DNA of 64,000 bases from a virus. The stretch is from positions 1 to 64,000 of IMG/VR virus record IMGVR_UViG_3300013132_000040, one strand, 5' to 3'. The translations under genes and the position numbers were made by a program. The stretch's first letter is position 1. Each line of letters starts with the position of its first letter. Shown piece by piece: positions 11,756-47,293 of this stretch. Under the pieces are notes generated by a model. That model did no database searches. It worked only from the letters and a program-made list of their open reading frames with translations, and had not been told where the DNA came from.

Positions 11756-12898
11756 ATGACTGTTTACTTTAAAAAAACTCATGACCAAATAATGAGAGAG
11801 GCACTTGCTAAGATAGAGCGCAATACTCCCATAAACGCAACTAACCCTGGGTCCGTAGCTAGAGCAATGACAGAGGCGATAACAACTGAACTCGGCGCTT
11901 ATTACGATGTTTTAGATTTTAACATAACTCAATCATTAGTTTCAAGTGCAACTGGTTCAGCCCTCGATCGTTTGGCTTCCCTATATAACATTAGTAGGAA
12001 AACGGTAGGTAGAGTTGCTAGGGCTGAGCAGAGGGTCGGAAGTTTTTATTTTTACCTTGATTCAACCTACGAATCGCCAGTCGTGATCCCCGCCGGTACG
12101 CGCGTTTTCACGGATAACGTCGGCTATGTTGGTAGGCAGCTTGTTTTTACCACTAATAACGAAGTTATAATACCTCCAGGTTCTTTAAGGGGCTATGTTT
12201 CAATAACTCCTGAATTTGCGGATGGAGTCTTTAGCGCACCTGTCGATACGTTAACTGCGCATAATTTCCTGGCTCCGAGTAATGTTGTCGTACGCTGCAC
12301 AAACGCTAAGGAAATTACAGCTTCCGAAGGGTATGAAAGAGATTCGGATTTTAGGGTAAGGGTTTTAAAGGGTATAAGGGTTGCCTCTTCGGGTACAATG
12401 GAAGCGGTACGTTTTGCCGCGCTTAATGTAAGTGGCGTTCGTGACGTAAGAGTTAGGCAAGCACCTTATGGGTTGGGTTCTTTTGAGCTTTTAATAGTGC
12501 CTGAACAGGCAGATTTGATTTCTTCTATCATAGTAGAAGTAAAGACTGCTGTAGATAGGGTTAGGCCACTTGGTGTAACAATGTTTATGAGAACGCCAGT
12601 TTTGCGACCCTTGCAGCTTCAGGTGTCTGTCTTGAGCAATTCTACCTCATCTCCGGAGTATGGAAATCTGACGGATCGTGTATCAACTGCGGTTGAGCGC
12701 TATTTGAACACGCTAATGCCTGGTGATACTATAGTCTACAATAAGTTAATACAGGCAATGATGGATTCGTCTGGTATAATTAAAGATATTCAAGTTTTAC
12801 GTTATGCGCCTAATGGCGTAGATTCAATTAAAAGAAATTATACCCCTAAGGATTATGAGCAAATAATTCCGGGTAATATTCAAGTTTCGTTAGCCTAA
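11756..12898 (+). CDS. gpJ-like baseplate wedge protein
   Basis: A 380-residue protein matching baseplate J family proteins in length and layout: an N-terminal helical start ('HDQIMREALAKIERNTPINAT'-like opening), 'GSALDRLASLYNISRK' near residue 65, a central beta domain with 'IPAGTRVFTDN', then 'ASEGYERDSDFRVRV' and 'MEAVRFAALNVSGVRDVRV'. The family forms wedge arms around the hub in P2- and T4-like tails. It follows the gp25-like gene by two bases, the standard arrangement. The C-terminus carries 'VERYLNTLMPGDTIVYNKLIQAM', again typical. I see nothing unusual in it. Confidence 0.92.
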   Translation: MTVYFKKTHDQIMREALAKIERNTPINATNPGSVARAMTEAITTELGAYYDVLDFNITQSLVSSATGSALDRLASLYNISRKTVGRVARAEQRVGSFYFYLDSTYESPVVIPAGTRVFTDNVGYVGRQLVFTTNNEVIIPPGSLRGYVSITPEFADGVFSAPVDTLTAHNFLAPSNVVVRCTNAKEITASEGYERDSDFRVRVLKGIRVASSGTMEAVRFAALNVSGVRDVRVRQAPYGLGSFELLIVPEQADLISSIIVEVKTAVDRVRPLGVTMFMRTPVLRPLQLQVSVLSNSTSSPEYGNLTDRVSTAVERYLNTLMPGDTIVYNKLIQAMMDSSGIIKDIQVLRYAPNGVDSIKRNYTPKDYEQIIPGNIQVSLA

Positions 12899-12912: not shown

Positions 12913-14094
12913 GTGAGAGTTTGTGCAGGCCCGGATTGTGCGGAAGAGTTCGATCCTATAGTCCATAATCAGAAGTATTGTGGTCCGGTTTGTAAGAGAG
13001 CCGCAGAAAATGCGGCCAAAAGGAAAGCGTTTACAGAAGACGTTGCTCAAGCAGTGGTAAAAAGTGTAGCCCCTGCGTATATGGGAATAGAGAATGAAGA
13101 AGGGCGAATAGACTTTTTGCAAAAAGAAGTTATTAGACTTTCTCGTTTGGCTGATAAGCGCAAATCTGTAAAAGATGAGATTGTTGATGTCACCTATCAG
13201 GCAGCATTTGACGCTTTTGCTGATTTCGAACTGCCACCAGTTAAAAAGCCTGTTTTTGGCAAGTCGGGCGTTGGTGAAGAAGAAGTTGCCGTAGCTGTAT
13301 GCGCAGATTGGCAGCTGGGTAAAGTGACTCCAACCTATAATTCTGACATATGCAGAGATAGAATAGATATTTTTGGTGACAAAATTATCCGTATAACCGA
13401 AATGCAAAGGGCCGATCACCCCGTTAAAAAAATACATCTCTGGCTTTTAGGTGATATTGTAGAAGGTGAAGAAATATTTGCGGGCCAAAGCCACTTGCTA
13501 GATTCTAGTCTCTATAAACAAGTAGGGGTAAATGGCCCAGAAATAATATCTGAACTAATACTTAAACTACTGACAAGTTTTGAGAACGTACATGTAGTTG
13601 GTGTTATAGGTAACCATGGCGCAATTGGTGGGCGTAGCAGGAGGGACTATAATGGCGAAACCAACATGGATAGACTACTTTATAAAATTGTAGAGTATAT
13701 TTTCAAAGATGAACCAAGAGTCACTTTTGATATACCAGATGGTGATGGCGAAAGAAACTTTTATGCTGTCGATAACATAGGTCTTTATTCTACCTTGCTA
13801 ATACACGGAGACCAGTTTCCGCCTCCTTCCACTACGCATGCATATTATAAGAAAGTGATGGGCTGGAAAGATGGTGCAATACCAGAGACTTTTCAGGATG
13901 TATACATGGGGCATTATCATCAGAATGCAAAAATGACTTTAGGTCAAACTATTCTTAGGGTTTCTGGCTCTCCAGAGAGTTACAATACATATGCGCAGGA
14001 AGTTTTGGCGGCAATGGGAAGGCCATCTCAGCCACTATTATTCGTCCACCCAGTCAACGGTGTCACTGGAGAGTATACTGTTTGGCTAGATTAA
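12913..14094 (+). CDS. Calcineurin-like metallophosphoesterase with N-terminal zinc finger
   Basis: A 393-residue protein starting at GTG with AAGGAAGG in front. Residues 4-27 carry Cys-x4-Cys-x13-Cys-x3-Cys, a small zinc site. From about residue 130 the five metallophosphoesterase motifs appear in order: 'ADWQLGK' (His replaced by Gln in the DxH motif), 'LLGDIVEGE', 'GVIGNHGA', 'LIHGDQF' and 'MGHYHQNA'. This is the fold of Mre11/SbcD nucleases and many phosphatases. Substrate cannot be told from sequence. It lies inside the baseplate cluster, after the gpJ-like gene and before a giant tail protein, which is an odd place for a DNA enzyme. It could be a virion component or merely co-transcribed. 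The same style of zinc finger recurs in the nuclease gene at 58,224. Confidence 0.88.
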   Translation: MRVCAGPDCAEEFDPIVHNQKYCGPVCKRAAENAAKRKAFTEDVAQAVVKSVAPAYMGIENEEGRIDFLQKEVIRLSRLADKRKSVKDEIVDVTYQAAFDAFADFELPPVKKPVFGKSGVGEEEVAVAVCADWQLGKVTPTYNSDICRDRIDIFGDKIIRITEMQRADHPVKKIHLWLLGDIVEGEEIFAGQSHLLDSSLYKQVGVNGPEIISELILKLLTSFENVHVVGVIGNHGAIGGRSRRDYNGETNMDRLLYKIVEYIFKDEPRVTFDIPDGDGERNFYAVDNIGLYSTLLIHGDQFPPPSTTHAYYKKVMGWKDGAIPETFQDVYMGHYHQNAKMTLGQTILRVSGSPESYNTYAQEVLAAMGRPSQPLLFVHPVNGVTGEYTVWLD

Positions 14095-14106: not shown

Positions 14107-17100
14107 ATGAAGACTTATTATTTAAGGTTAAAGGATGTAGATTTTTCGTTTACCGGTGGACGCTGGGTTAGTGGCGTTATCGACTTGTACGATAACGAAA
14201 GCACAATGTCTATGGCTACGCCTTCTTACGTGAACTACAGTACCGTCACTAGTTCGTATGGAACCAACCTTTTGGGCGATGATACATGGACTGGTTTCAA
14301 TATAGTAGACGACTCTGCAAGCCCTAATATAGTAACTGAATCTGGATACATTAAAGATGGCCGGTTTGTTGATACAAGCGGGAAAATTAATGTTACTACT
14401 TGGGAAGTTGTTTATAACAATTTTTCCTTTAGTGAAGTAAGTGCTTCAATTTCTTTTTATTATACGGATCTTTCGACCTTAAACTTTCCCGAAGAGTGGC
14501 CAAAAGTCGGCCCGTTAAAAAATAATAAAGGCATATATATACCCAACTGCCCAAGGTATGCTCGTTTTATAGTTGATTTTGAGTCAGAAAAAGATTTAAC
14601 TGGTATTAGTTTTGATCTTTATGTTAAGGTAAGAATTGAAAAACCGGTAATATCCCCGCTGTATGGTAGGACAAGAGGGATTCTTAGGAAGTTTCCCGAA
14701 TGGATGGAGTTAAGGAAGGATAGCGAAGATTCTTCTACACCAAGCCTAGCCACTCCAACCACTGTTGCGGGTTCTTTTATTAATGCGATAGCGGGGGAAT
14801 GGCTTGAAGACCTCGTAGAGACTGTTGGTTATGTACAGCTTCAGTCATTTATAGAAACTGCCGATACTGGACAGGTTGCTTGGGTATACGTCGCTGATGG
14901 CGTACCAACGCTATTCGCAAGGGCTATCGGGGATGGCACGATATTGTCGCGTGCCGCTGATGTCGTTGAATTTACTAAAGCGGCAGATGATAGCGATATA
15001 TTTTACTGGGATGAAGATAAGAGAATTATCTACACCAGAAAACTTTATCAATATTTCCAAATTGACGATACCAAATACGAGCAAAACGCAAGTCAAGTTT
15101 GGAACTGGTTTGACGAACACGGCTTATCTCTTGACCTTGAGCGCCACACGTCGGAAAGCAATGATTCATATAAAAAGAGAATTATTGATGTCTACAGGAA
15201 TAAGCCGGGCGTTGGGATTGAGGCATTTAAACTAGCTTTGAGGCGTGAGCTCAATTTATGGCTCTATGAAGGTGCAACACCTGATTCAAATTACCTCGGT
15301 GCCACTCCTGAGGTCCTAGAAGTTAAAGACCTTTTTAATGACGAATCTTTTGTCTTTCCAAACGGAATGCCAAAAGATAAGTTTATTAAACTTGTTGATG
15401 ATCTAGCAGTTAAGTACCCAACAACTTGGGGTTACTTTAGGTGGGACCAAGCCTACTGGGATATAGATGGCGATGATTCCTTGGGATATGGGCTTTTGCC
15501 CTATCAATATGATCCGGGTCATTTATCTAACGAGAGTACTCAGTCTGGTGTTGGCGATGACCTGGACCTCTACTTGTACAAGCCCAAAGTTAATACTGGT
15601 GTAAAAGAGTTTGATTTGTCAGTGGTTGCCAAGGGTTACACATTGACCTATGTTAATGATTATGCTCCAATTAACTTTTTGATCGATGTTTATGGACGTG
15701 CAGAAAAAAGCGTATATTCTACAGATAAAACAGAATTTCCTATGAATTTTGTTGCAACCATGTCTGACGGGAAACAATATAGGGCAAATTTAGATGTAAA
15801 TATTGATAAAGCAATATCGAACGAAGATCCTGGTTTTCTTGGGGCTTCTGCAACGGTTCCATTGGTTGAAATCGATAAGCTTTTCCCCCAAATAAATTGG
15901 TACGATGATGAACTCCAGAGATATTCCAATTCTTATGCGTCTAGCATGCAAACGAAGTTGGCCGATATAACAGGCACTTACGTATTTCAAATGCCTAGGA
16001 ACTCTATTTTCAATTCAAGCAATCCCAAACTTCAGATCGGACAATCAATATCTCTTTATTCGGGTTCTTCCTATATATTTGGGACAATAAAAAATATATC
16101 ACAGTCTTCCAGTTTTTATCCCGACGAAATAGACCTTTTTGATTACCTTACGGTTGAGGATATAACGTACAGTGGAGATATAACTTCCTCAAACTGGACT
16201 ATACCCTGGTATATTTATCTCCTTAACACAGATGCCACTCCAACTTTTATGTTGTCCAATATGAAAGTTGGTTTTGGCAAGTATGAATTAATACCTAATA
16301 CAATAGTGCAAAGTCACAACTCGGTAAAAATGTTCTTTGAAAACCCAAATTCATATTACGTTGTATTTGGCCTTTCTGCTGGATCGTTAAATACTGCAAC
16401 TCCATCTGTGACTAAGGACATGGACATAGTCTTGCATCGTCTGAGTGCACAAATAATGGGTACTGTATATCATGTAGATTCTGATCCGGACGATTCAACT
16501 TATTCCGGCATAAGTAGTTCACAATCAATTAATTTAACAACTCTCACGGTTGGCGCAAGTTTGACTTTCGCTATTTCTAGTCATGTTAAGTTTGCGGTTG
16601 GCAACAAAATTAAGGTTACTCACTCATCCAACTCTAGCAATTATTTTACTGCTACTATAACCCAGAAACTATCTGGTCCAAGTAGGTTAACCGTAACCGT
16701 GTTAAGCAAATCTGGTTCGGGTACCAGTATTGATTCTTGGTCAATTACTCCAATTTGGGATGAGGTAATAAGCGAGGCTAAAAGTATTGCCGCATTGTCG
16801 TCTTATGATGAGTATATTATTGTTCATTTGTCTTCTGTTTCGGGAGATTGGATGGAAACTGATGGTTGGGAAATTTGGAGTAATGGGTATTTTGGTTTTG
16901 ACAATTATCCTAGTGAAAATCTGACAGCATACTTAAGTGACGATTTATATAAAGCTACACCATCTCATTATCTAGAGGCACAAAGTGCTACTCCGGGTAC
17001 GTATTTAAATAGTGATCTTAAATCTTTCCCTTCTGTAGTGGTTGGTTTGGAAGATTATTCAATTATAGAAAATTACCCCTGGGAATCTGAAGCTCAGTCC

Positions 17101-19542
17101 TATTACGTAACAGTTAATTCTGGATCAAGTCCATCTAGTCAAGCTAGTTGGGAAACAATCGTGCCAGAGGTTTTGTGGGATCCCTATGTTTCTGCCACTC
17201 CAACAAAAGAAATTTTTGTGGAATTACTGACAGCCAACGAAGATGGAGATTTTGGCGCATATAGTCGAGATGTTCTTGGGAATAATATTTTTATTCCAAA
17301 GGAAAATATATACGTTAATGGCAGTAATTCTTGGATTAACAAAAATACATATGATGCTACACCAAACCTAACTGAGCAACGCTACGTTATTGTATTAGAC
17401 CCCTCTACGGAGACTATAGAGGTTACCGTAAGTGACGATGGTTTAGTAAATTATCCTGCGCAAAGGCTTGAGTATGTTGGTTTCGAAAAAACAATTTCTT
17501 CTATTGAATCTGGTTTTGTAGATGAAAACGGTCCCTGGAGGAACGGCGTTAAACCACGTCCTGGTCAAAATAATTATGGCTTTACAGTTTTGGAATTAGA
17601 TAGAGATGATTTCGCCATCCCAAATAATTCTGATAGCATTGTCACTTGGATAGGTGTTAAGTCAAGTAATGATAGGGTTATAGTCTGGCTTGACCAAAAC
17701 ACCGTTAAACCAGCAGTTGAAGATGATTTAGTTTATACTCAAGAATATCAACCTAATAGTATTATTGAGACAAAAGACTTGTCCAATTTGTATTCTTATG
17801 GTCCGATCATCGTTAGGGCTAAATTGAAGCAGGATGTTAATAGTGGATGGAACCCTCAAATTCATAGCGGGTGGTTCTATAACAGGAATGATGAATATTA
17901 CCTATATGTAGACCCAGTGACGGAAATTGCTTCGCCGGGTTCCGAGGGCGCCACTCTTAATAATTTTTATGCACAAAGGGTAGTCCGACAGGGTGCGCCC
18001 ACCATAGTCAAAGCATTATCTGCAACACCATTAGAAATGAGGCGTGTATCATTTTTTGATGATAGTATAAATTTGTCCTTGAAGAATACTCAATATGTTT
18101 CCGGTACCGGAACAAGCAATCTTTATCTCGCCTATGACGACGTTTATGACGCTACTGTTTCAGACTTTACTTCTGGTGCAACGATTTTGACGAACGGTAA
18201 GACAAGTACAAGCGAACTAAACATTGGGTTAACCACTGCTGTTGATCATGTCTATAAAGTCGAATATAAATTGAAAAATTCTTACTATGTAGATAACGAG
18301 TATGTGGATCACAGTGGTGAGCAAAGGTCTAAATTTGTCTTTGATGGAACACCATCTTCCGCTACACCATTTAGTTTGACGTATGAAAATTCTATTTTTG
18401 ACCCAGCTACACCAGTTGATATTGCCCTAAATCCGTTCGATACAACCATCGAAGAAGGTTTTGTATTCTTGAGTCTTAATGAATACGATGCAGCAACGCC
18501 ACAGATAAGGGTTAGTCCTGGAATCCTAATCGCCAATGGTGAAGATTACGCAATAGTTTCTATTTATTCTGTGGATACTTACGGAAATCCAAAACCTAAT
18601 CAAACTTATACTATTGAAACCGGTTTTGGAATATTTGAAGAGACCAATAGCAGCACTGCGACTATATTGACTAATCAGGATGGTTTTGCGTTTTTGACGC
18701 TTGTTTCGGAATCGGGTTCCTTAGTTGAATCGGCAACCGTAAATGTGTACGCCTCACCAACTGTAGGCGGTAATGCTATAGCCCAAATGCCATTTGGCAT
18801 TAATGCCCGAAAAGTTGAGGAACATAAACTTTATTCAACTGTTGATCCAGATGCAATACCCGCAGATGGTGTTAGTGCAACTTCTGTGTACGGAAAAGTA
18901 TTGGACCCCTCTGGAAATATCGTTCCTTATGCGTACGTTTCATACAGGAAGGGTAGATCATTAAGTGAAATATTCTCCAATACAGACGCCACACCAGATG
19001 TGGGTCCAGGTGCGACACCTGCAGCAACGCCAGTATGGCCAAATGTTGGTAGGGTAATTTCTGATGCTAGCGGCATATTCCGCATAGGACCATTTACGGC
19101 GTCTACGCCAGGAGAAGACGGTTATTGGTTTGTTATGACTGAGTCTTTTTCTTCTAGTCCATCTTCCCAATGGGGCACAGTTGGTGATGTTGTTTTTTGG
19201 CAAGAGTACCCACCAAGGTTTAACGCTGTTAACGGCGATAATCAGTCTATACCTGTGCCTTCTAATTTGGATGTTTCGCAAACTCTTTGGGTGGATGACG
19301 TTGGTGCCTTAAGGTTTGAACCCCTTATTCCTCCAGCCGCAACTGTAAATGCTTTTCCTGTAACTTTTGATGAAGAAACACCTACTGCTGATGCAACTCC
19401 TGTTACTAATATATGGAGTCCGCCATTGTGGTATGCGGTTAATCGTTATGATCAGTATCAGCGTGGAATATTAGGTGACGATTTTTATGTATTTAAAATT
19501 GAAAACTTGCCTAAAACCCATCCAGACTATAGGGATGTATAA
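14107..19542 (+). CDS. Very large tail/fibre protein with Ig-like domains and repeated Ala-Thr-Pro
   Basis: A 1,811-residue protein. Its position straight after the wedge genes and a region near residues 340-390 ('SESNDSYKKRIIDVYRNKPG') recall gpI-type baseplate proteins that carry fibres, but only weakly. Two stretches near the C-terminus look like bacterial Ig-like (Big-1) domains: ~1,465-1,570 ('SIYSVDTYGNPKPNQTYTI' to 'NQDGFAFLTLVSE') and ~1,575-1,690 ('VYGKVLDPSGNIVPYAYVS' to 'DASGIFRIGPF'). These are common in fibres that bind cell surfaces. The tripeptide Ala-Thr-Pro occurs 18 times from near residue 37 to near 1,765, far above chance, spelled with varied codons. No enzyme motif was found. 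I infer a baseplate-attached adhesin; the exact role is unknown. Start follows AAGG at 14,098-14,101. Confidence 0.8.
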   Translation: MKTYYLRLKDVDFSFTGGRWVSGVIDLYDNESTMSMATPSYVNYSTVTSSYGTNLLGDDTWTGFNIVDDSASPNIVTESGYIKDGRFVDTSGKINVTTWEVVYNNFSFSEVSASISFYYTDLSTLNFPEEWPKVGPLKNNKGIYIPNCPRYARFIVDFESEKDLTGISFDLYVKVRIEKPVISPLYGRTRGILRKFPEWMELRKDSEDSSTPSLATPTTVAGSFINAIAGEWLEDLVETVGYVQLQSFIETADTGQVAWVYVADGVPTLFARAIGDGTILSRAADVVEFTKAADDSDIFYWDEDKRIIYTRKLYQYFQIDDTKYEQNASQVWNWFDEHGLSLDLERHTSESNDSYKKRIIDVYRNKPGVGIEAFKLALRRELNLWLYEGATPDSNYLGATPEVLEVKDLFNDESFVFPNGMPKDKFIKLVDDLAVKYPTTWGYFRWDQAYWDIDGDDSLGYGLLPYQYDPGHLSNESTQSGVGDDLDLYLYKPKVNTGVKEFDLSVVAKGYTLTYVNDYAPINFLIDVYGRAEKSVYSTDKTEFPMNFVATMSDGKQYRANLDVNIDKAISNEDPGFLGASATVPLVEIDKLFPQINWYDDELQRYSNSYASSMQTKLADITGTYVFQMPRNSIFNSSNPKLQIGQSISLYSGSSYIFGTIKNISQSSSFYPDEIDLFDYLTVEDITYSGDITSSNWTIPWYIYLLNTDATPTFMLSNMKVGFGKYELIPNTIVQSHNSVKMFFENPNSYYVVFGLSAGSLNTATPSVTKDMDIVLHRLSAQIMGTVYHVDSDPDDSTYSGISSSQSINLTTLTVGASLTFAISSHVKFAVGNKIKVTHSSNSSNYFTATITQKLSGPSRLTVTVLSKSGSGTSIDSWSITPIWDEVISEAKSIAALSSYDEYIIVHLSSVSGDWMETDGWEIWSNGYFGFDNYPSENLTAYLSDDLYKATPSHYLEAQSATPGTYLNSDLKSFPSVVVGLEDYSIIENYPWESEAQSYYVTVNSGSSPSSQASWETIVPEVLWDPYVSATPTKEIFVELLTANEDGDFGAYSRDVLGNNIFIPKENIYVNGSNSWINKNTYDATPNLTEQRYVIVLDPSTETIEVTVSDDGLVNYPAQRLEYVGFEKTISSIESGFVDENGPWRNGVKPRPGQNNYGFTVLELDRDDFAIPNNSDSIVTWIGVKSSNDRVIVWLDQNTVKPAVEDDLVYTQEYQPNSIIETKDLSNLYSYGPIIVRAKLKQDVNSGWNPQIHSGWFYNRNDEYYLYVDPVTEIASPGSEGATLNNFYAQRVVRQGAPTIVKALSATPLEMRRVSFFDDSINLSLKNTQYVSGTGTSNLYLAYDDVYDATVSDFTSGATILTNGKTSTSELNIGLTTAVDHVYKVEYKLKNSYYVDNEYVDHSGEQRSKFVFDGTPSSATPFSLTYENSIFDPATPVDIALNPFDTTIEEGFVFLSLNEYDAATPQIRVSPGILIANGEDYAIVSIYSVDTYGNPKPNQTYTIETGFGIFEETNSSTATILTNQDGFAFLTLVSESGSLVESATVNVYASPTVGGNAIAQMPFGINARKVEEHKLYSTVDPDAIPADGVSATSVYGKVLDPSGNIVPYAYVSYRKGRSLSEIFSNTDATPDVGPGATPAATPVWPNVGRVISDASGIFRIGPFTASTPGEDGYWFVMTESFSSSPSSQWGTVGDVVFWQEYPPRFNAVNGDNQSIPVPSNLDVSQTLWVDDVGALRFEPLIPPAATVNAFPVTFDEETPTADATPVTNIWSPPLWYAVNRYDQYQRGILGDDFYVFKIENLPKTHPDYRDV

Positions 19543-36508: not shown

Positions 36509-39500
36509 ATGTCTGTCAATCCACCGTACCTTTCTTTCAAGTTGCCAGAGGAGTTTATAAAAGACTACAAAAAGAAGACCGTTCCATGGGGTTTTCCAAT
36601 TGGTTCTGGTAACTCGTTGGGTGAGTTAACTTTCTTAACTAAATACAGCAGAAGAAAGGCCGATGGGGGTAAAGAGCGCTGGTGGGAAACTTGCGAGCGT
36701 GTTATAGAGGGTATGTTTTCTATACAAAAGGATTGGTGCAAGTCCAATAGGCTTCCCTGGAATGAGAGGAAGGCTCAAGCTACCGCCCAAGATGCGTACG
36801 ATCGTTTGTTTAATGGTAAGTGGACGCCACCAGGTAGGGGTTTGTGGATGATGGGGACCGAGTTTGTAAACGGTCAAAAGAACTCCGCAGCATTGCAAAA
36901 CTGCAGTTTTTTATCGACAGAAAGCATTTCTTCAAGAAGCGTACATGAGGCTGTATGGCCTTTTGTTAGGCTTATGGAAATGTCAATGCTTGGTGTCGGT
37001 GTGGGTTTTGATACGAAGGGCGCAGGAAAGCTTGAGATACATCAGCCCCTTAAAGAAGTAAAAACCTTTATTATACCGGATTCGCGAGAGGGGTGGTATG
37101 AGTCGGTATCTTTGCTTTTGGAGTCTTATTTCTTCGCGAACAGGCATAGTGTAGAGTTTGATTACGGCAAGATACGCCCTTCTGGTCAGCCGATCAAGGG
37201 TTTTGGCGGCGTTGCCGCCGGTCCCGGCCCCCTTATGGATCTGCATAAGTCGCTAAAAGAGCAGTTTGAAGGTAGGTTTGGTGAAAGAATTTCTTCTACT
37301 GATATTGTCGATATACAGAATAAGATCGGCAAATGCGTAGTTGCCGGAAATGTTAGGCGCTCAGCTGAAATTGCGTTAGGTGATTTAAACGACCAAGATT
37401 TTCTTGACCTAAAAAACTGGGAAGTAAACCCTGAACGTATGGGCGCAAATGGTTGGGGTCATACCAGTAATAATTCAATTGTTGCCAGCGTTGGTGATAA
37501 CTTTGATAATATTGCAGGCCGAATTGCGGACAACGGGGAGCCGGGAATTATCTGGCTCGATCTTTGCCGCGAGTACGGGAGGCTCGTTGATACCCCAAAC
37601 AATAAGGACTGGAGGGCAGCGGGCACAAACCCTTGCGTAACATCAGATACGTGGGTCTTGACTTCTGATGGCCCTAGGATGGTAGAAGATCTTATTGGTT
37701 ATTCGCCGGATATCATAGTGGATGGGAAGGCCTATAGCCCAGTTTCTGATGGGTTTTTCAGTACTGGAATTAGGGACGTTTTCGAAATTGTAACCAACAA
37801 AGGTTACCGGGTTAAGGTTACCGAAGAGCACCCAATTATGACCCCAAATGGGTGGGTGGAAGCAAAAGACCTTAAGTTAGGTGATTCTATCGTCCTACAT
37901 AACCATGGTAACTTCTCTTGGGATGGTGCCGGAGATAATGGAGACGGTTATCTGCTTGGTCTACTCATTGGGGACGGAACCTACATGGGCTACAGGGATA
38001 GGGCTACCCTATGTACATGGGGGGATGACGGTGTCGAGTCAGTTCGTGACTACGCTTATAAAGCCCTTTCTAGGTATGACGCCCGATCAGACTGGGGTGG
38101 GTGGTCAGGGCCATTTGGTAATGGGTGGTACCGCATGTCCAATGTCGCCTTGACGCAATTGGCTTCGAGGTTTGGGGTGACAGCGGACTCCAAAACCGTC
38201 ACTAGGCAGATTGAAGAGGCTTCATCCTCATTTTACGAAGGCTTTCTTTCGGGACTCTTCGATGCTGACGGCCACGTAGAGGGGAGTAAGGAGAAAGGTG
38301 TGACTATAAGACTTTCTTCTGTAGATTACGATATGATCCTGTCTGTCCAAAGAATGCTTTCTCGCCTTGGGATTATGTCTTCCGTTCATTGGACTGATCG
38401 TAAAACGGATTTTGGGAAGACAGATGGTTTTTGGAGGTTAATTATTTCATCCGAAAGTTCTGAAAGGTTCATGGGTCGTGTTGGATTCGTTGACTCTGAT
38501 AAGTCACAAAAGTGGCATAATCTCTCCGAAGGGGTGAATCATTACAATAAACCGTTCCAGGCCGATGTTGTCGAAATAAACCACCTGGGTCAATACGAGA
38601 CTTTTGATATCACGGTAGAACATATCCACGCTTTCGACGCCAATGGAATTTATGTATCAAACTGTTCCGAGCAGACTCTTGAATCCGGTGAATGCTGTAC
38701 TCTTGTGGAAAACTTTATTTCCAGGCACGATTCACTTGAGGATTTCCAAAAGACCCTTAAAGTTTCTTATTTATACGCCAAATCAGTAACCCTACTCCCA
38801 ACGCATTGGCCCGAAACAAATGCCATTATGCAAAGAAACAGAAGAATAGGATGCTCTGTATCAGGACTCGCTCATTTTGCTGAGATGAATGGGTGGACAG
38901 ATTTACGCAGATGGTTGGATAATGGTTACGACTACATTCAGGCTTTAGACACCAAGTATTCTGAGTGGTTGGGTTGTAGGCTATCTATTAAGACGACTTC
39001 GGTAAAACCATCTGGAACAGTTTCGCTGCTTTTTGGTGTTACGCCAGGCGTTCATTGGCCAACGGCCGATGTATATATTCGTAGGATGCGATTAGCCGCA
39101 AACGATCCGCTCTTGGATGCGCTACGTTTAGCTGGTTACCATACAGAGCCCGACGTCATGGATCCAACTCACAGCGTTGTTGTAGAACTACCAACTGTTG
39201 GTCCCGATGTTCGAACTGAGCGTGAAGTTTCCATGTGGGAAAAGACTGCATTAGCAATTCTCGCCCAAAGGTACTGGGCTGATAACCAGGTTTCTGTCAC
39301 GGTGACTTTTAAAGAAGATGAAAAATCTCAGATTGGAGCTTTACTGCGCTCAATAGACGGACAATTAAAGTCAGTGTCAATGCTCCCATTGCTCGAAGTC
39401 GGGGGCGCTTACAAACAAATGCCTTACGAGAGAATTGACCTTGAGGAATGGGAAAATCAGGTAGAAAAAGTGAAGCGTATTGATTGGGCAGATTATTACA

Positions 39501-39562
39501 AGGGAAATTCTTTTGACGCAGAAGGCGAAAAGTTTTGCTCAAACGATACCTGTGAGATATAA
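36509..39562 (+). CDS. nrdJ: Class II (cobalamin-dependent) ribonucleoside-triphosphate reductase with intein
   Basis: Makes deoxynucleotides from ribonucleotides by a radical mechanism using adenosylcobalamin. Total 1,017 residues; removal of the 343-residue intein (376-718) leaves about 674, close to monomeric class II enzymes. Landmarks: 'PPGRGLWMMGTEFV', 'LQNCSFLS' (redox Cys), the rejoined active site N-P/C-S-E-Q with thiyl Cys and Glu, 'ESGECCTL' (second redox Cys), and a C-terminal Cys pair in 'EKFCSNDTCEI', matching the shuttle cysteines of the Lactobacillus-type reductase. The intein interrupts exactly before the catalytic Cys, so splicing is essential for activity. A strong AGGAGA precedes the ATG. 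The TAA stop is part of a TATAAT promoter for the next gene. It works with the nearby ThyX and dCMP deaminase to supply dNTPs without needing oxygen. Confidence 0.95.
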   Translation: MSVNPPYLSFKLPEEFIKDYKKKTVPWGFPIGSGNSLGELTFLTKYSRRKADGGKERWWETCERVIEGMFSIQKDWCKSNRLPWNERKAQATAQDAYDRLFNGKWTPPGRGLWMMGTEFVNGQKNSAALQNCSFLSTESISSRSVHEAVWPFVRLMEMSMLGVGVGFDTKGAGKLEIHQPLKEVKTFIIPDSREGWYESVSLLLESYFFANRHSVEFDYGKIRPSGQPIKGFGGVAAGPGPLMDLHKSLKEQFEGRFGERISSTDIVDIQNKIGKCVVAGNVRRSAEIALGDLNDQDFLDLKNWEVNPERMGANGWGHTSNNSIVASVGDNFDNIAGRIADNGEPGIIWLDLCREYGRLVDTPNNKDWRAAGTNPCVTSDTWVLTSDGPRMVEDLIGYSPDIIVDGKAYSPVSDGFFSTGIRDVFEIVTNKGYRVKVTEEHPIMTPNGWVEAKDLKLGDSIVLHNHGNFSWDGAGDNGDGYLLGLLIGDGTYMGYRDRATLCTWGDDGVESVRDYAYKALSRYDARSDWGGWSGPFGNGWYRMSNVALTQLASRFGVTADSKTVTRQIEEASSSFYEGFLSGLFDADGHVEGSKEKGVTIRLSSVDYDMILSVQRMLSRLGIMSSVHWTDRKTDFGKTDGFWRLIISSESSERFMGRVGFVDSDKSQKWHNLSEGVNHYNKPFQADVVEINHLGQYETFDITVEHIHAFDANGIYVSNCSEQTLESGECCTLVENFISRHDSLEDFQKTLKVSYLYAKSVTLLPTHWPETNAIMQRNRRIGCSVSGLAHFAEMNGWTDLRRWLDNGYDYIQALDTKYSEWLGCRLSIKTTSVKPSGTVSLLFGVTPGVHWPTADVYIRRMRLAANDPLLDALRLAGYHTEPDVMDPTHSVVVELPTVGPDVRTEREVSMWEKTALAILAQRYWADNQVSVTVTFKEDEKSQIGALLRSIDGQLKSVSMLPLLEVGGAYKQMPYERIDLEEWENQVEKVKRIDWADYYKGNSFDAEGEKFCSNDTCEI
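37634..38662 (+). other. Intein with LAGLIDADG homing endonuclease inside RNR
   Basis: An in-frame 343-residue insertion beginning at Cys of 'CVTSDTWVLTSDGPRMVEDL' (block A) and ending at Asn of 'DANGIYVSN', followed by extein Cys-Ser-Glu. Block B 'TEEHPIMTPNGWV' carries the TxxH motif. The two LAGLIDADG-type motifs are 'LLGLLIGDG' (near 37,955) and 'FLSGLFDADG' (near 38,255). Block F is 'ETFDITVEHIHAFDANG'. The penultimate residue is Ser rather than His, as in some active inteins such as the Npu DnaE C-part. All splicing residues are present, so it should splice and may still home. Confidence 0.93.
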
Positions 39563-41472: not shown

Positions 41473-41683
41473 AGTAAAAATCAACTTAGAAAATGGTCAA
41501 TCATATGTGATTGCCGATATGAGCACTTGGGTTGACTTGTCTTATGCAATAAATTCAATGGCCGAACAGTGGCCAAAAGATGCTGAGGAATATTCATTGT
41601 GGATTAAATTTCTTGACCTCTTTGAATCCCAGTATTTAGGAAATCTTTTTGAAGAACCTTACGAAGATGATGGTTGGAGTTAG
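41462..41683 (+). CDS. Hypothetical acidic protein
   Basis: A 73-residue acidic protein, overlapping the preceding gene by 11 bases. It opens 'MPAKVKINLENGQSYVIA', then 'DMSTWVDLSYAINSMAEQWP', and ends in an acidic tail ('FEEPYEDDGWS'). No zinc site or membrane helix. It is the last gene before the glycan island; the first glycosyltransferase starts eight bases after its stop. No function is suggested. Confidence 0.65.
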   Translation: MPAKVKINLENGQSYVIADMSTWVDLSYAINSMAEQWPKDAEEYSLWIKFLDLFESQYLGNLFEEPYEDDGWS

Positions 41684-41691
41684 GTTTTTTT

Positions 41692-42519
41692 ATGATTGAT
41701 TTGTGTATTGTTTCTTATAATACAAAAGACAAATTAAAAAGATTGATTGATACTTTAGCGTCTGATTATAAAGCAGACATGTTTAATCTTTATGTCCTTG
41801 ACAATAACTCTACGGATGGTTCGCAAGATTATTTGACAAGCGTTGTGAAGCCTTTGAATTGGCCGGGTGAAATTATATTAAGTTCTTTTAATTACGGCTA
41901 TTCTTTCGCGTGTAACCTTCTAGCTTCGCGCGGCAAAGCAAACTTAATAGGACTACTTAATGCTGACGTTTGGTTAAGGACGCAGGATATAAATACTATT
42001 GAGAGCAGGATTTACGAATTAGACGCAGATATATATGGACCAAAACAAAGAAATGAAATGGGGTATATAACGCATGCGGGAATATTTGGCAGCAATACCC
42101 ACCCACAACACCGGGGTTGGAAGGCGCCAGATCCAGAAGATAGGCTTTTTAGAGACACCTTAGACGCAGTTACAGTATCTGGATCCGCCTATTTCGTTAA
42201 GAGGACTGCATGGGAAAATCTGACTTACGATCCCGAGTATATTAACCTTTTGGGTCATTTAGTTGGTACGAACAAAATACCTTTGTGGTCTATTCTTTCT
42301 GATGGCGCATTTCTGCCGACACCTCACTACTATGAGGAAACTTGGTGCTCCTATTACGCAAGACATAGGGGTTATAGTGTTGTTTATGATGGCTATGTTT
42401 CTATAGGGCATAGCTGGCATGCGTCATCGGAGATTGGTGGGGAGCAAGATTCTAAGTTTAGTATTAGTCAGTCAATATTTAGGGAGTCCTGCGACTACAT
42501 GGGGATTCCAAGGGATTAA
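41692..42519 (+). CDS. Glycosyltransferase family 2-like protein
   Basis: A 275-residue GT-A fold enzyme expected to move a sugar from a nucleotide donor. ATG at 41,692 is chosen because the GT2 opening 'MIDLCIVSYNT' starts there and TAGG precedes it; a TTG at 41,674 adds six unrelated residues. Motifs: 'LYVLDNNSTDGSQDYL' (nucleotide-binding loop), 'LLNADVWL' (DxD position), 'GSAYFVKRTAWENL'. Acceptor and sugar cannot be told. First of seven glycosyltransferase-like genes in a row. Confidence 0.87.
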   Translation: MIDLCIVSYNTKDKLKRLIDTLASDYKADMFNLYVLDNNSTDGSQDYLTSVVKPLNWPGEIILSSFNYGYSFACNLLASRGKANLIGLLNADVWLRTQDINTIESRIYELDADIYGPKQRNEMGYITHAGIFGSNTHPQHRGWKAPDPEDRLFRDTLDAVTVSGSAYFVKRTAWENLTYDPEYINLLGHLVGTNKIPLWSILSDGAFLPTPHYYEETWCSYYARHRGYSVVYDGYVSIGHSWHASSEIGGEQDSKFSISQSIFRESCDYMGIPRD

Positions 42520-42529
42520 GGTATTTATT

Positions 42530-43222
42530 ATGTTAATAGCCAATATGGTAGGCAAAAACGAGGCTGATAGATTTCTTGATGATGTGTTAAGGCATTTATC
42601 GGGTATTGTGGATCTTATAGTTTTCACCGATGATTGTTCAGAGGATGAAACGAAACAGATAGCATCTGGTTATGCAGAAACTTTTAGCACAGAAGAAAAT
42701 CTTTTTACTAAAGACGAAGGGCGCTTACGGACTATAGCTTGGTCAAATCTTTCGAAGTTTGCTAAACCTGGCGATTGGATTTTGGCTATTGACTGTGATG
42801 AAAAACTTTGGTCTACTGTTGAGAATTTTGACATGGTGTCTTTGCTTAACCAAAATAGATATGATGTAATTAATATTAAATTTTTCCATATGTGGAATGA
42901 AACGCAATATCGCGTAGATAAATTATGGGCACCGAATGATAGCTCTAGATTGTTTAGGTTTTACGATGGGGGTGTCTTTAATGATCGTAAGTTGGCGTGT
43001 GGTTCTGAACCGACTTATGTCAATTCTCTGATTCGTTCCGGAAGTTACTTGCGTGATAGCTCGCTCATTATGCAGCATCTTGGCTATGTTCGTGATGAAG
43101 ATAAAAAAATGAAATTTGATAGATACATGCAATTAGATGGTGGCGATTTTCACCAAAAGAGCCATATAGAGTCTATTGTCGACCCCGAACCGGTTTTGCT
43201 CGATTGGCGTATATATGCCTAA
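42530..43222 (+). CDS. Glycosyltransferase family 2-like protein
   Basis: A 230-residue GT-A type protein. ATG at 42,530 with AAGG eight bases upstream is preferred; the frame is open further back inside the previous gene but that part reads as shadow. It opens 'MLIANMVGKNEADRFLDDVL', as in glycosyltransferases that share 'KNEadrL', followed by 'FTDDCSEDET' and 'WILAIDCDEKLW' (DxD). The C-terminal part has 'SSRLFRFYDGG', common in this group. Second gene of the glycan island; overlaps the next gene by eight bases. Confidence 0.83.
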   Translation: MLIANMVGKNEADRFLDDVLRHLSGIVDLIVFTDDCSEDETKQIASGYAETFSTEENLFTKDEGRLRTIAWSNLSKFAKPGDWILAIDCDEKLWSTVENFDMVSLLNQNRYDVINIKFFHMWNETQYRVDKLWAPNDSSRLFRFYDGGVFNDRKLACGSEPTYVNSLIRSGSYLRDSSLIMQHLGYVRDEDKKMKFDRYMQLDGGDFHQKSHIESIVDPEPVLLDWRIYA

Positions 43223-43892
43223 GGTTAGTGTTATATTGACCGTTTACAATAAGCCGCAGTGGTTGCGCCAATGTATCGATTCCGTATTGGCTCAGACATT
43301 TGATGATTGGGAATTAATTGTATTGGAAGATAATTCTCCAAATCAAGAAGTCAAAAATATCCTAGAACAATACAGTTCTAATGAAAAAATTAAAATATAT
43401 TATTCAGATGTAACAGAAGAAGATCGATACAAAACCGCAAGATACGCAACGCTCATAAATCATGGGGTAAGGAACATGTCATCTGGAGAATATATCAGTT
43501 ATTTAACAGATGATGATTTTTATTATCCCAATAGGCTTGAGAAGATGGCGAAAATGCTTGATATTACTGGTGTTCCAATCGTTTACGGAAATCAGCAGGT
43601 AGTGGATGCAGACGGTAATCCTAGCGGCATTAGAGAAACACAAGGTATTTTGGATTCAGCTTGGAATATAGTGGATCATAACTCTGTAATGCATCGTAGG
43701 GATGTTTTTTTTGAGGCTGAAGGTTGGCCAGACTCGCCAGATATTTGGGGAGGTGCAGACGCCCACTTTTGGGAAAGGGTGACTAGTCTAGGCCATAAGT
43801 TCTACCCCATAGAAGGGGCTCCACTGGATGCCAAAAGGTACCATACCGGCAGCGTACAGTGGCTTGTGCATAACGGTCAGTTCTTCCCATGA
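43215..43892 (+). CDS. Glycosyltransferase family 2
   Basis: A 225-residue enzyme, the most canonical GT2 of the island. ATG at 43,215 starts the standard opening 'MPKVSVILTVYNKPQWLRQC'. Other motifs: 'SVLAQTFDDWELIVLEDNS', 'YLTDDDFYYPNRLEKM' (DxD for metal and nucleotide-sugar), and 'WGGADAHFWERV' with a catalytic-base-like acidic segment. It overlaps the previous and the next genes by a few bases. No membrane segment, so it is a cytosolic enzyme acting on a soluble acceptor, a lipid at the membrane face, or a virion protein. Confidence 0.9.
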   Translation: MPKVSVILTVYNKPQWLRQCIDSVLAQTFDDWELIVLEDNSPNQEVKNILEQYSSNEKIKIYYSDVTEEDRYKTARYATLINHGVRNMSSGEYISYLTDDDFYYPNRLEKMAKMLDITGVPIVYGNQQVVDADGNPSGIRETQGILDSAWNIVDHNSVMHRRDVFFEAEGWPDSPDIWGGADAHFWERVTSLGHKFYPIEGAPLDAKRYHTGSVQWLVHNGQFFP

Positions 43893-44572
43893 CAACTACG
43901 CAATTCCCGGTACTCGTAACTTGCCGTGACAGGGTTAGTGACTTAAAGAACCTTATTTGTTGGTTTGAAAAAGTCGGATTAGAAAGAGTATATCTATTAG
44001 ATAATCACTCAACATATGAGCCGCTTTTGGATTTTTATGAGGAAACTTGGTGTCAAGTTTTAAAATTAGGGGATAATTTCGGCCACATTGCTGCCTGGAA
44101 AGCCAATATAGTACAGACTATATGCGCAGACGAACATTTTATTGTCACGGACCCTGACGTAATCCCGGTAGAAGAGTGTCCTGATGATGCTGTTGATTAT
44201 TTTTTTGACATTTTGAATAAAGAAAATGACATTACTAAAGCGGGATTTGGTTTGAGGATAGATGATTTACCAGATTCGTTTAGGTTTAAGAATGAAGTTA
44301 TACAATATGAAACACGTTTTTGGGACAAAAAGCACCATCCCGACTATAATCGCTCACCAATAGACACTACGTTCGCCTTGTATAAGCCAAATTCTACTCC
44401 AGATATAAGCTTCTCCATTAGGACTTGCTACCCATATGTCGCTAGGCATATGCCATGGTATGTTGATAGCCACAATTTAACCGAGGAAGAAACCTACTAT
44501 AGGGAACATGCAATTGACTCAATAACTTCTTGGAATAAAGACCATTTGCCACATTGGTGGTCTCCTTCATGA
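43889..44572 (+). CDS. Glycosyltransferase-like protein
   Basis: A 227-residue protein resembling GT-A glycosyltransferases. It opens 'FPVLVTCRDRVSDLKNLICW', then 'VYLLDNHSTYEPLLDFY', 'NFGHIAAWKAN' and 'HFIVTDPDVIP' (DxD). The C-terminal region contains 'SPIDTTFALYKP' and 'VARHMPWYVD', which look like acceptor-side motifs of a related small group. Starts four bases before the previous stop (ATGA) and ends four bases into the next gene. Sugar specificity is unknown. Confidence 0.82.
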   Translation: MTTTQFPVLVTCRDRVSDLKNLICWFEKVGLERVYLLDNHSTYEPLLDFYEETWCQVLKLGDNFGHIAAWKANIVQTICADEHFIVTDPDVIPVEECPDDAVDYFFDILNKENDITKAGFGLRIDDLPDSFRFKNEVIQYETRFWDKKHHPDYNRSPIDTTFALYKPNSTPDISFSIRTCYPYVARHMPWYVDSHNLTEEETYYREHAIDSITSWNKDHLPHWWSPS

Positions 44573-45240
44573 GTATTTATTGCGTAATTCCAACAATATG
44601 GAAAAATGATATGATTTACAATTTAGTGAATCAGCTGAATCAGCAGAATGAATTTATCAATTTATTTGTACTTGATAATATTGCTCTTGGTTCAAAACAT
44701 GTTGGTAGATTTGGTTCCGATAAAATATTTGAGATACCAACTAGTGGTCTCGGAATTTATGAGCAATGGAATCTCGGGGTAAAAGAATGCCTTAAAAACG
44801 ATGATTGCGAAAGTATTGTTATATTGAATGATGATATTGTTTTAAAATGTGATAACTTTTTAAGTAAACTAGTTCATCCATTTGAGGATCCTTTAATTTG
44901 GGCCTCGTGTGCAAATTACGACGATCGCGAATCGGACACTGAGTTTACTGGAGTATACGGAACCTACAAGGATAGAGGATTTGCAGGCTTTGCTTTCGGG
45001 GTTAAGGCGTCTGCTTATTCTGAGGGTTTAGCATTTTTTGATGAACAGTATAACTGGTGGTTTGGCGATGATGACTTTGTTCATACTGTACATTCGGCAG
45101 GTAAAGAAACCGTAATGTCAATTGCGGCCAAAGTGGAGCACGTAAACGGCGGATCCCAATCGACCTCTCAATATACGCCAGAGTTTAATTATTTAGTCGA
45201 AAAAGACAAGGCTTTGTATCTAAGGAAATGGCATGGATAA
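44569..45240 (+). CDS. Glycosyltransferase-like protein
   Basis: A 223-residue GT-A-like protein. ATG at 44,569 overlaps the previous stop (ATGA) and begins the core strand 'MSIYCVIPTIWKNDMIYNLV'. Motifs: 'LFVLDNIALGSKHVG', 'IYEQWNLGVKEC', 'IVILNDDIVLKCDNF' (D-D-x pattern at the DxD position) and 'WWFGDDDFVHTV'. The latter is typical of GT2 catalytic regions. Part of the seven-gene island with overlapping ends. Confidence 0.82.
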   Translation: MSIYCVIPTIWKNDMIYNLVNQLNQQNEFINLFVLDNIALGSKHVGRFGSDKIFEIPTSGLGIYEQWNLGVKECLKNDDCESIVILNDDIVLKCDNFLSKLVHPFEDPLIWASCANYDDRESDTEFTGVYGTYKDRGFAGFAFGVKASAYSEGLAFFDEQYNWWFGDDDFVHTVHSAGKETVMSIAAKVEHVNGGSQSTSQYTPEFNYLVEKDKALYLRKWHG

Positions 45241-45907
45241 TCGAATAATATTGGGGGTTATAGGCAACGGTCGTTCAGAATTATTGGACGGAACTATTCA
45301 AACCCTTTTGTCGAATGTAAATTGCGATTTTTACAAAAAGATAATGATCAATGATACGGGGAATCAAGATTATCATAATTATTTAACAGAAAACTATGGA
45401 GATATATTTGAAATCATATCACATAGCAGCAATCAGGGCTTATCGGGTTCTATCATGTCGTTGTGGGATAGGTCTTCTGATTATGGTTTTGATTATATTT
45501 TTCATGTCGAAGAAGATTTCTTATTTAATTTTCAAATAGATATTTTCGAACTAGTGTCTGTCTTGAACGCTGATCCTAATTTGGCTCAGATAGCTTTAAA
45601 AAGACAACCTGTTAACGATTTTGAGTCTTCAATAGGTGGGTTCATGAACGCAGATCCATCTAGTTACCAAAAACATTGTTTGGGTAATCTAAAATGGTTG
45701 TCACATAGAAACTTTTTTACACTCAATCCAAGCCTCTATCCTAGGTGGGTTGTTGAGGTGGGCTGGCAAAACGGTTGGGGAGAAAAAGAGTTTGCAGACT
45801 TACTTTTTTCTAATGAACAAATTGTTTGTGGATTTTTAGGAGACGTTGAAGACGAACCATTGGTTTTTCATACTGGAACTTACAGGGCGGCTAATTGGAT
45901 GCTATAA
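45233..45907 (+). CDS. Glycosyltransferase-like protein
   Basis: A 224-residue protein with GT-A features: 'RIILGVIGNGRSELLDGTIQ' at the start, 'NQGLSGSIMSLWD', and 'YIFHVEEDFLFN', an E-E-D variant of the DxD motif. The later 'WQNGWGEKEFADLL' matches the acidic segment near the acceptor site in related enzymes. Starts eight bases inside the previous gene. Its TAA stop lies within a TATAAT element that may promote the next gene. Specificity unknown. Confidence 0.8.
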   Translation: MDNRIILGVIGNGRSELLDGTIQTLLSNVNCDFYKKIMINDTGNQDYHNYLTENYGDIFEIISHSSNQGLSGSIMSLWDRSSDYGFDYIFHVEEDFLFNFQIDIFELVSVLNADPNLAQIALKRQPVNDFESSIGGFMNADPSSYQKHCLGNLKWLSHRNFFTLNPSLYPRWVVEVGWQNGWGEKEFADLLFSNEQIVCGFLGDVEDEPLVFHTGTYRAANWML

Positions 45908-45908
45908 T
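45903..45908 (+). promoter_or_regulatory. -10 element TATAAT overlapping a stop codon
   Basis: TATAAT includes the TAA stop of the upstream glycosyltransferase gene and ends seven bases before the ATG at 45,916, with no ribosome site in between. The -35 is poor. Same arrangement as at 35,049 and 39,558, suggesting a leaderless internal promoter. Confidence 0.45.
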
Positions 45909-45915
45909 ATAAGTA

Positions 45916-46542
45916 ATGTTTCGTAGTTTGGATAATTTTATGATTAAAAAACTTGTTATAGTGGGCGCAGGGTCTCATGGGTACGGAATACAAACCATAG
46001 TTCATGCCATTAACGAGAATCGCTACGAATGGGATTTATTAGGGTACTTAGATGATGATTCAAGTAAGGCCGGCGTTATAGGGCCTGTCAACTCTGATAT
46101 AAAAAGCTGCTACTATATAATTGGTGTTAATAATCCTAACTTAAAAAAAGCACTCCATAAAAATATTAGTTTAAAAAAAGCAGCAACTTTGATCCACCCA
46201 TCGGCGTTAATAGGGCCAAATATGACATTTGGTTATGGTATTGCTGTTTTTGCTGGTGCAATTTTTACTGGAAAATCCACCGTAGGAAATCATTCCCACG
46301 TGAATGTTGGTTCAACTATTAGTCAAGGTTCTAATATTGGTGAATATTGCAGTATCGGCCCAGGTTGCAATATAGCCGGGCAAGTAATCATTGGCAGCGG
46401 CACACTTGTCGGCACGGGTGCTTCAATAGTTAATCTAATAAAAATAGGTCAAGATTCAAAAATTGGTGCAGGTGCTGTCGTTATAAATAGTTTCCCAGAA
46501 GAGAATAAAACAATCGTTGGTGTCCCGGCAAGGTGCTTGTAG
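45916..46542 (+). CDS. NeuD/PglD-type sugar O/N-acetyltransferase
   Basis: A 208-residue protein with the two-part plan of the NeuD/PglD family: an N-terminal Rossmann-like part ('KKLVIVGAGSHGYGIQTI', 'LLGYLDDDSSKAG') and a C-terminal left-handed beta-helix of hexapeptide repeats ('VGNHSHVNVGSTI', 'IGEYCSIGPGCNIAG', 'IGAGAVV') ending 'VGVPARCL'. The family transfers acetyl groups to sugars such as sialic acid or UDP-linked amino sugars; the His in 'GNHSHVN' is the probable catalytic base. Start at 45,916 assumes leaderless initiation behind TATAAT; ATG at 45,940 is a reasonable alternative. Among seven glycosyltransferases, it implies that the phage glycan carries an acetylated sugar. Confidence 0.9.
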   Translation: MFRSLDNFMIKKLVIVGAGSHGYGIQTIVHAINENRYEWDLLGYLDDDSSKAGVIGPVNSDIKSCYYIIGVNNPNLKKALHKNISLKKAATLIHPSALIGPNMTFGYGIAVFAGAIFTGKSTVGNHSHVNVGSTISQGSNIGEYCSIGPGCNIAGQVIIGSGTLVGTGASIVNLIKIGQDSKIGAGAVVINSFPEENKTIVGVPARCL

Positions 46543-46543
46543 A

Positions 46544-47293
46544 GTGGGTAAAGTTTTTGGCATTTGCATGGTGAAAAACGAGGAAGATGTAATTGGTCAT
46601 ACTATCAATTATTTTTTGACTCAGGAATTTGATGGGTTTATTATCGCAGATAATTTATCTACAGATAATACTAGAAACATTCTGAATGAACTCGCTTTTA
46701 AAAATAGTTCTATTATTGTCGTAAACGATAACGAGGTAGGTTATTATCAGTCAAGAAAAATGACCGGTATAGCCAACATGGCTGCAGAATTTGGGGCAGA
46801 GTGGATAGTCCCTTTTGACGCAGACGAACTTTGGTATAGCACTACCGGAGCTACTGTGGGTTCGACATTGCGCTTAATGCGCGAAGACGTTGCCGTAGCA
46901 AAGGTGTGGGATCATATACCTCAGGAATCTGATCCAAATAATCCCAACCCGTTTAAATCTATTGTGCACAGGGAAAGGGAGCCGGAACTATGGCCTTGCG
47001 TAGCTTATCGCTATGAGATTGGCTCAATTTTACTTCAGGGGAACCATGATGTTATAAGATCTGGTGAAAGAAATTTTTCGGATATAGAAATTAGGCATTT
47101 TCAATACAGGTCATTTGATCAGTTTAAGAGAAAATTAATAAATGGCAGAAAAGCATACGAAGCTACAAATTTGCCCGAAACAGAAGGCACCCATTGGAGG
47201 CGTATGGGTGGCCTAGATGATAACGGTCTTTGGTTTGAGTGGCAAAAGTTAATCAACCAAGATTTAGTTTACGATCCAGCACCAATGTTGTAA
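46544..47293 (+). CDS. Glycosyltransferase family 2-like protein
   Basis: A 249-residue GT-A-like protein. GTG at 46,544, one base after the previous stop, is preferred; the TTG further upstream lies inside the acetyltransferase gene. Motifs: 'VFGICMVKNEEDVIGHTINY', 'FIIADNLSTDNTRNIL', 'EWIVPFDADELWY' (DxD) and 'RHFQYRSFDQFKRKL' near the C-terminus, all typical of GT2/GT92-like enzymes. Seventh and last glycosyltransferase of the island. It is followed ten bases later by an unrelated nuclease gene. Confidence 0.85.
   Translation: MGKVFGICMVKNEEDVIGHTINYFLTQEFDGFIIADNLSTDNTRNILNELAFKNSSIIVVNDNEVGYYQSRKMTGIANMAAEFGAEWIVPFDADELWYSTTGATVGSTLRLMREDVAVAKVWDHIPQESDPNNPNPFKSIVHREREPELWPCVAYRYEIGSILLQGNHDVIRSGERNFSDIEIRHFQYRSFDQFKRKLINGRKAYEATNLPETEGTHWRRMGGLDDNGLWFEWQKLINQDLVYDPAPML

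Follow-up and report, generated by a model that had tools for sequence, protein, structure and literature searches.

[A/S]TP tripeptides in a tail protein of an uncultured phage lineage as probable acceptor sites for phage-encoded O-glycosylation

Results

The ATP-rich protein and its genomic setting

The window analysed here, a 64 kb stretch out of an IMG/VR record of 76,317 bases, contains an ORF with a stop-free translation of 1,811 residues which lies downstream of a Baseplate J gene (PF04865) and is itself followed by giant structural ORFs (Table 1). Residues 190-385 of its product match phrog_21059 (virion structural protein; E 2e-22), while an Ig-like (Big_1/invasin D3-like) region at residues ~1462-1547 falls below the Pfam cut-off, and these matches, together with the Baseplate J neighbour, indicate a baseplate-region or tail protein. 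Relatives have the Baseplate J and ATP-rich genes in the same order; homology and gene order thus both point to a phrog_21059-like baseplate/tail structural protein, and the baseplate genes suggest that the phage is large and of the contractile-tail type. A homologous module, covering residues ~190-510 and wider in the first of the two, was found in Moorella phage MTATph1 (CDS0049/50) and Bacillus phage KLEB27-3 (gp042), where it is likewise encoded downstream of baseplate wedge genes; unlike the window phage, however, both have 0 ATP and no enrichment in the homologue, and their genomes lack GT2 genes. A search of bacterial genomes (GTDB) with the tail protein returned no match. An SbcD-like exonuclease gene (phrog_284) separates the ATP-rich ORF from the Baseplate J gene, odd company for a nuclease within a baseplate operon, and the relatives L001 and L009 carry an equal-sized ORF at this position.

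Table 1. Positions within the window of the tail protein gene, its [A/S]TP sites, neighbouring genes and the glycosyltransferase island
Feature	Position	Strand	Remarks
Baseplate J gene	11756..12898		PF04865
SbcD-like exonuclease gene	12913..14094		phrog_284
Predicted baseplate/tail structural protein	14107..19542	+	18 ATP + 2 STP sites
ATP site 37	14215..14223	+	
STP, residue 210/211	14734..14742	+	relatives' column 28 ATP / 4 STP
ATP site 215	14749..14757	+	
ATP site 390	15274..15282	+	column 18 ATP, 9 STP, 1 ASP of 34
ATP site 399	15301..15309	+	most conserved, 32/34 relatives
ATP site 710	16234..16242	+	
ATP site 764	16396..16404	+	
ATP site 950	16954..16962	+	
ATP site 961	16987..16995	+	
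ATP site 1030	17194..17202	+	loop in model
ATP site 1084	17356..17364	+	loop in model
ATP site 1306	18022..18030	+	inter-strand loop in model
ATP site 1419	18361..18369	+	loop preceding strand in model
ATP site 1434	18406..18414	+	low-confidence model region
ATP site 1463	18493..18501	+	loop preceding strand in model
ATP site 1628	18988..18996	+	low-confidence, possibly flexible segment of model
ATP site 1636	19012..19020	+	
ATP site 1640	19024..19032	+	
STP, residue 1666	19102..19110	+	ATP in relatives L001, L002, L009, L013
ATP site 1763	19393..19401	+	column 18 ATP, 4 STP of 33
B12-type ribonucleotide reductase	36509..39562		
Core glycosyltransferase c0	41674..42519	+	GT2, soluble, DAD motif; candidate enzyme
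Core glycosyltransferase c1	42419..43222	+	GT2, soluble, DCD motif; start probably near 42521
Accessory GT2	43176..43892	+	
Island ORF, possible GT	43889..44572	+	no family match
Island ORF, PHROG galactosyl transferase	44554..45240	+	phrog_29879, E 4.5e-5 (weak)
Island ORF, PHROG galactosyl transferase	45233..45907	+	phrog_3047, E 2.9e-7 (weak)
PglD/NeuD-like hexapeptide acyltransferase	45916..46542	+	PglD_N, Hexapep
GT2 of c1 group	46517..47293	+	
DnaE-type DNA polymerase III alpha	52812..56138		

ATP enrichment is confined to one protein

The preliminary description of this DNA had reported 18 Ala-Thr-Pro (ATP) tripeptides in the protein where less than one would be expected, and none in the neighbouring proteins of 2,583 and 2,095 residues. 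Both statements were borne out, as the exact count is 18 against 0.44 expected from composition (Poisson P ~5e-23), 5,000 shuffles of the 1,811-residue sequence yielded at most 4 ATP, and the two giant neighbours contain 0 and 0. The remaining window ORFs that were checked hold a pooled 2 ATP against 2.6 expected, and when every tripeptide in every ORF of the record was scanned without bias, only ATP in ORF 14107-19542 reached P<1e-5. We therefore rejected the idea that the phage, or its virion proteins at large, are simply rich in ATP, the other ORFs and the flanking proteins being near or below expectation.

Enrichment and site turnover among relatives

A profile search of IMG/VR with the conserved module retrieved 64 loci, 52 with strong similarity and 12 remote. 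All 52 of the former are enriched in ATP and/or STP, so that the enrichment is retained in every close relative, and no ATP/STP enrichment was seen in the 12 remote relatives (25-38% identity). The proteins of L001 and L002, which share 55-58% identity with the window protein, contain 15 and 17 ATP, and those of L009 and L013 (~45% identity) 17 and 16. Across 34 distinct full-length members, 420 ATP were counted against 12.5 expected and 213 STP against 22.9, while the large ORFs flanking these members (128,000 residues) hold 12 ATP against 20.8 expected and the rest of the proteome on whole contigs of up to 190 kb is near expectation (pooled 49 ATP against 39 in 191,000 residues). The motif pattern is thus a property of the whole phage lineage, with this protein as its exclusive target.

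The [A/S]TP sites are spread over 111 alignment columns, 73 of which are occupied in at least two sequences, and parsimony on the tree requires at least 206 gains or losses, a figure that alignment errors would inflate. Columns range from nearly fixed (site 399) to private, including one private site in a LamG-like stretch of L001 (domain assigned by eye) that is absent from the window protein, and many sites keep T and P but alternate between A and S at the first position. As sites are conserved, private and mobile across columns, it is the density of sites that appears to be selected and not each site. The codons are equally varied, with 12 distinct 9-mers among the 18 copies of the window protein and 56 of the 64 possible spellings among the 420 copies of the relatives, which substantiates the earlier proposal that selection acts on the protein. 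A DNA-level repeat or insertion element was rejected on the grounds of this codon diversity and of the many sites that are substitutions. The suggestion that the tripeptides are micro-insertions in loops was upheld in part, since some sites are clean insertions relative to homologues (...TGATPVT... in L002, ...DGATPYM... in L013) but most are loop substitutions in place, such as SATPTK in the window protein against SEESK in L001, or YATPSE in L009 against YVDPVT in the window protein. Motif sites lie near indels in 75% of cases, as compared to 58% for other T/S/P residues.

Definition of the motif

ATP had been singled out as the repeated unit, and although it is indeed dominant (34-fold), Ser is also enriched at positions 1 and 2; judged from the 34 members, the true motif is [A>S][T>S]P and not ATP alone. 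Among A-x-P tripeptides, T occurs at 33.7 times expectation, S at 3.6, N at 1.4 and V at 1.0 times, and among x-T-P tripeptides A reaches 33.7 times, S 9.3 times, T weakly 2.3 times and G 0.9 times, with W at 2.7 times resting on 8 copies; enrichment of A-T-x is essentially restricted to P. The 3.6-fold excess of A-S-P, set against expectation level for the isosteric A-V-P, indicates that the hydroxyl matters. Upstream, Gly is tripled at position -1 (119 against 36 expected), and at position -2 acidic residues are doubled (162 against 80) and basic residues avoided (7 against 41), while hydrophobic residues are favoured at +2/+3 past the Pro. This context looks like the consensus of an enzyme or of a binding site in which a hydroxyl has a role.

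Predicted structure

An AlphaFold2 model of residues 906-1811, built from 34 sequences, was of medium confidence (mean pLDDT 65, 491 residues above 70), and that of residues 1-905, built from 3 sequences, had a pLDDT of 33.5. The former is a beta-rich chain for which Foldseek returned a homologue from an uncultured phage and otherwise, at low TM-scores, only generic Ig/macroglobulin-like, invasin/intimin and Big_1 likeness. In agreement with the loop placement foreseen in the preliminary description, 95% of motif Thr were located in loops of this medium-confidence model, against 52% of the remaining Thr and 65% of the remaining Pro, loops being scored by secondary structure, not by solvent exposure, and in 10-residue blocks with a mean pLDDT of at least 60 only. 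The motif sites lie in turns and precede beta strands in the model.

A constant glycosyltransferase island

The seven-gene glycosyltransferase island that had been noted in the same genome does exist, at ~41674-47293, with the modification that one of its genes encodes a PglD/NeuD-like acyltransferase. Its linkage to the motif is constant within the lineage, as all 38 lineage contigs that are long enough on this side carry GT2 genes at a distance of 19-28 kb downstream from the tail gene, and the 8 lineage contigs lacking GT2 stop at or before 19.7 kb downstream of it; none of the 12 contigs of distant, motif-free relatives, most of them longer than 100 kb, carries a GT2 gene. The c0 and c1 families were present in 14 of 14 islands inspected, while the accessory genes vary, and the glycan therefore probably varies as well. 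Membrane-like segments were not found in the window glycosyltransferases, which fits cytosolic acceptors.

The c0 protein belongs to a distinctive family with a FLPTPHYYEETWCSYFARH motif, represented by at least 324 IMG/VR loci and by one record among 50,697 sequenced phages, GX15bay, in which c0 and c1 are adjacent. The phages bearing c0 thus form an abundant uncultured lineage with almost no isolates. Neither c0 nor the ORF at 46517-47293 matched a PDB chain at E<=0.01, and a search of GTDB with c0 gave one hit on a phage-like contig within a Saccharibacteria MAG and another in the chromosome of a Nocardioides. In unrelated phages with c0/c1, ATP counts in structural genes were 11 against 3.5 expected for GX15bay, 4 against 2.0 for G057 and 4 against 1.7 for G058, and none of the three has a strongly enriched single protein; taken with G056 and contig G098:C28, this group displays a weak ATP excess or none, several of the contigs being too short to include tail genes.

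Discussion

A hydroxyl-dependent motif, its placement in loops, redundant and mobile sites and linkage to glycosyltransferases find their best unifying explanation in O-glycosylation, and we consider it fairly likely that the phage itself encodes the enzymes which O-glycosylate an exposed protein of its baseplate or tail at an [A/S]TP sequon, in other words that it probably sugar-coats its own tail at these tags. We infer that [A/S]TP would serve as the acceptor sequon, with an O-linked glycan on Thr or, less often, Ser, and that the soluble GT2 pair c0/c1 (41674-43222) would act in the cytoplasm while the virion is being assembled or earlier, the accessory island genes then extending and acylating the glycan. 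Selection would maintain many sequons per molecule while individual sites come and go between loops, and the selected trait would be the overall glycan coat of the tail tip, whichever sites carry it; its likely benefits are protection against proteases or binding proteins, or a change in surface binding. The main weakness of this reading is that the co-occurrence of glycosyltransferases and motif is seen within one lineage and is phylogenetically confounded; points against it are also that unrelated phages with c0/c1 have at most a weak ATP excess and no strongly enriched protein, and that Che8, the one other glycosylated phage compared, has no [A/S]TP in its glycosylated proteins. The more far-reaching proposal, that this lineage of large environmental phages has evolved a sequon-guided cytosolic O-glycosylation by c0/c1 for a single tail-tip protein, with a dense and shifting glycan shield like that of animal-virus glycoproteins, we hold to have about an even chance of being correct.

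A strict core combined with positional tolerance, loop exposure and turnover is also typical of multivalent binding motifs, and the upstream acidic and Gly residues and downstream hydrophobic residues could represent a binding-groove consensus. The [A/S]TP loops might accordingly be short linear motifs for multivalent weak docking of a partner from phage or host, such as a lectin-like or decoration protein or a component of the host surface, with no covalent modification involved. We regard this as unlikely, since the tolerance of Ser for Thr but not of isosteric Val points to a reactive hydroxyl, and no candidate binding protein was identified while the glycosyltransferases are constant neighbours. 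There is very little chance that A/S-T-P is simply a structural solution, a favoured sequence for loops and strand entry in a beta-rich fold that has no further function: the sites do lie in turns before beta strands, places which Pro and Thr favour, but the near-isosteric or turn-forming AVP, GTP, NTP and ANP are not enriched, motif Thr exceed other Pro in their preference for loops, and neither the remote homologues that share the conserved module nor the large neighbouring proteins are enriched.

It may also be asked whether the island serves DNA hypermodification or a change of the host surface, its linkage to the ATP-rich protein being a coincidence of shared ancestry. The island lies directly downstream of ThyX, which adjoins it in 18 of 18 genomes, and near a ribonucleotide reductase and a deaminase-like ORF, a setting of nucleotide metabolism, the linkage is confined to one lineage, and viruses are known to have DNA-modifying glycosyltransferases (Pyle et al. 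2024, via PMC12619734). A DNA-hypermodifying pathway with a hydroxymethylase or TET/JBP alongside the glycosyltransferase was not detected, however, as a thymidylate-synthase-type (ThyA-like) hydroxymethylase was found in 0 of the 18 largest relatives and TET/JBP above the cut-off likewise in 0 of 18, with three TET-like matches below it. The glycosyltransferases lack the membrane segments typical of surface-modifying GtrB enzymes, and the remote relatives are alike without glycosyltransferase and without motif; we accord this possibility only a small probability.

For O-glycosylation by the phage, a mechanistic parallel may be drawn between c0/c1 and the glycocin S/O-glycosyltransferases of the SunS type, cytosolic enzymes of the GT2 fold which act on the side chains of peptides. 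The preliminary description had instead likened the sites to O-glycosylated actinobacterial proteins; homologues, glycosyltransferase linkage and predicted loops all agree with glycosylation sites as such, but the likeness to a Pmt-type system is weak. Pmt glycosylation acts on exported proteins at the membrane. In Streptomyces coelicolor, Pmt O-mannosylation is reported to have no distinct consensus (PMC6593405), and while Ser/Thr O-glycosylation in Ala/Pro/Gly-rich surroundings would be common to both systems, the window system differs in the context of its motif and in having a strict [A/S]TP motif, an intracellularly assembled virion protein as its target and glycosyltransferases with no membrane-like segment. 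The phage-encoded soluble glycosyltransferases are better candidates than a Pmt-type system of the host.

A functional counterpart is offered by the mycobacteriophages Che8, Corndog and Myrna (Freeman et al. 2023), which are described as O-glycosylating the C-terminal ends of their capsid and tail tube proteins by means of their own glycosyltransferases (PMC12619734, PMC12363180, PMC11652166). Both cases would involve tailed phages whose glycosyltransferases are apparently aimed at their own virion proteins; in contrast to the C-terminal glycans described there, the putative sites of the window phage are dispersed over the loops of a baseplate-region protein and have a clear sequon. ATP/STP is absent from the glycosylated capsid and tail tube proteins of Che8, and blastp of the window glycosyltransferases against Che8 gp108-110 gave no convincing match, with none for c0/c1 and the best one, between the accessory glycosyltransferase at 43176 and gp108, at E 0.010 over 56 residues. 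With no common motif or detectable homology, the window system would be a variant and not a member of the same family, working in a similar manner with a different enzyme and site family as far as these comparisons extend. A literature search, which is no proof of absence, yielded no phage tail protein with a sequon signature so strong and widespread, and to our knowledge no other with a comparable one has been described. If correct, phage-encoded glycosylation of this protein would provide a motif from which the acceptor sites of phage glycosylation could be read and a candidate glycosyltransferase pair that might be usable as a simple Thr-Pro glycosylation tool, and would be evidence that phages of free-living bacteria keep a glycan shield on their tails where no animal immune system is involved.

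Other features of the window and of the contigs examined

The contig RXKC01000010.1 (Candidatus Saccharibacteria MAG; L290, G098:C28) is phage-like and carries the c0/c1 pair together with a window-like ribonucleotide reductase, further sugar genes and a terminase-like ORF (annotation partly by eye), and it possibly derives from a Saccharibacteria-associated phage. At 10.4-25.8 kb of IMGVR_UViG_3300035698_026635 (G064) the glycosyltransferase island is apparently expanded to ~14 genes, which run from c0/c1 to a helicase-like ORF and, by eye, appear to include a nucleotide-sugar epimerase-like gene and other sugar genes. IMGVR_UViG_3300021963_009201 (G002) encodes a 1,283-residue collagen-like protein with ~100 Gly-Pro-Thr triplets at 18048-21899, and a second, partial collagen-like protein at the contig end. 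In the window itself, the B12-type ribonucleotide reductase contains an intein with a LAGLIDADG homing endonuclease (PF14890, PF14528), and the phage also encodes a DnaE-type DNA polymerase III alpha with a PHP domain.
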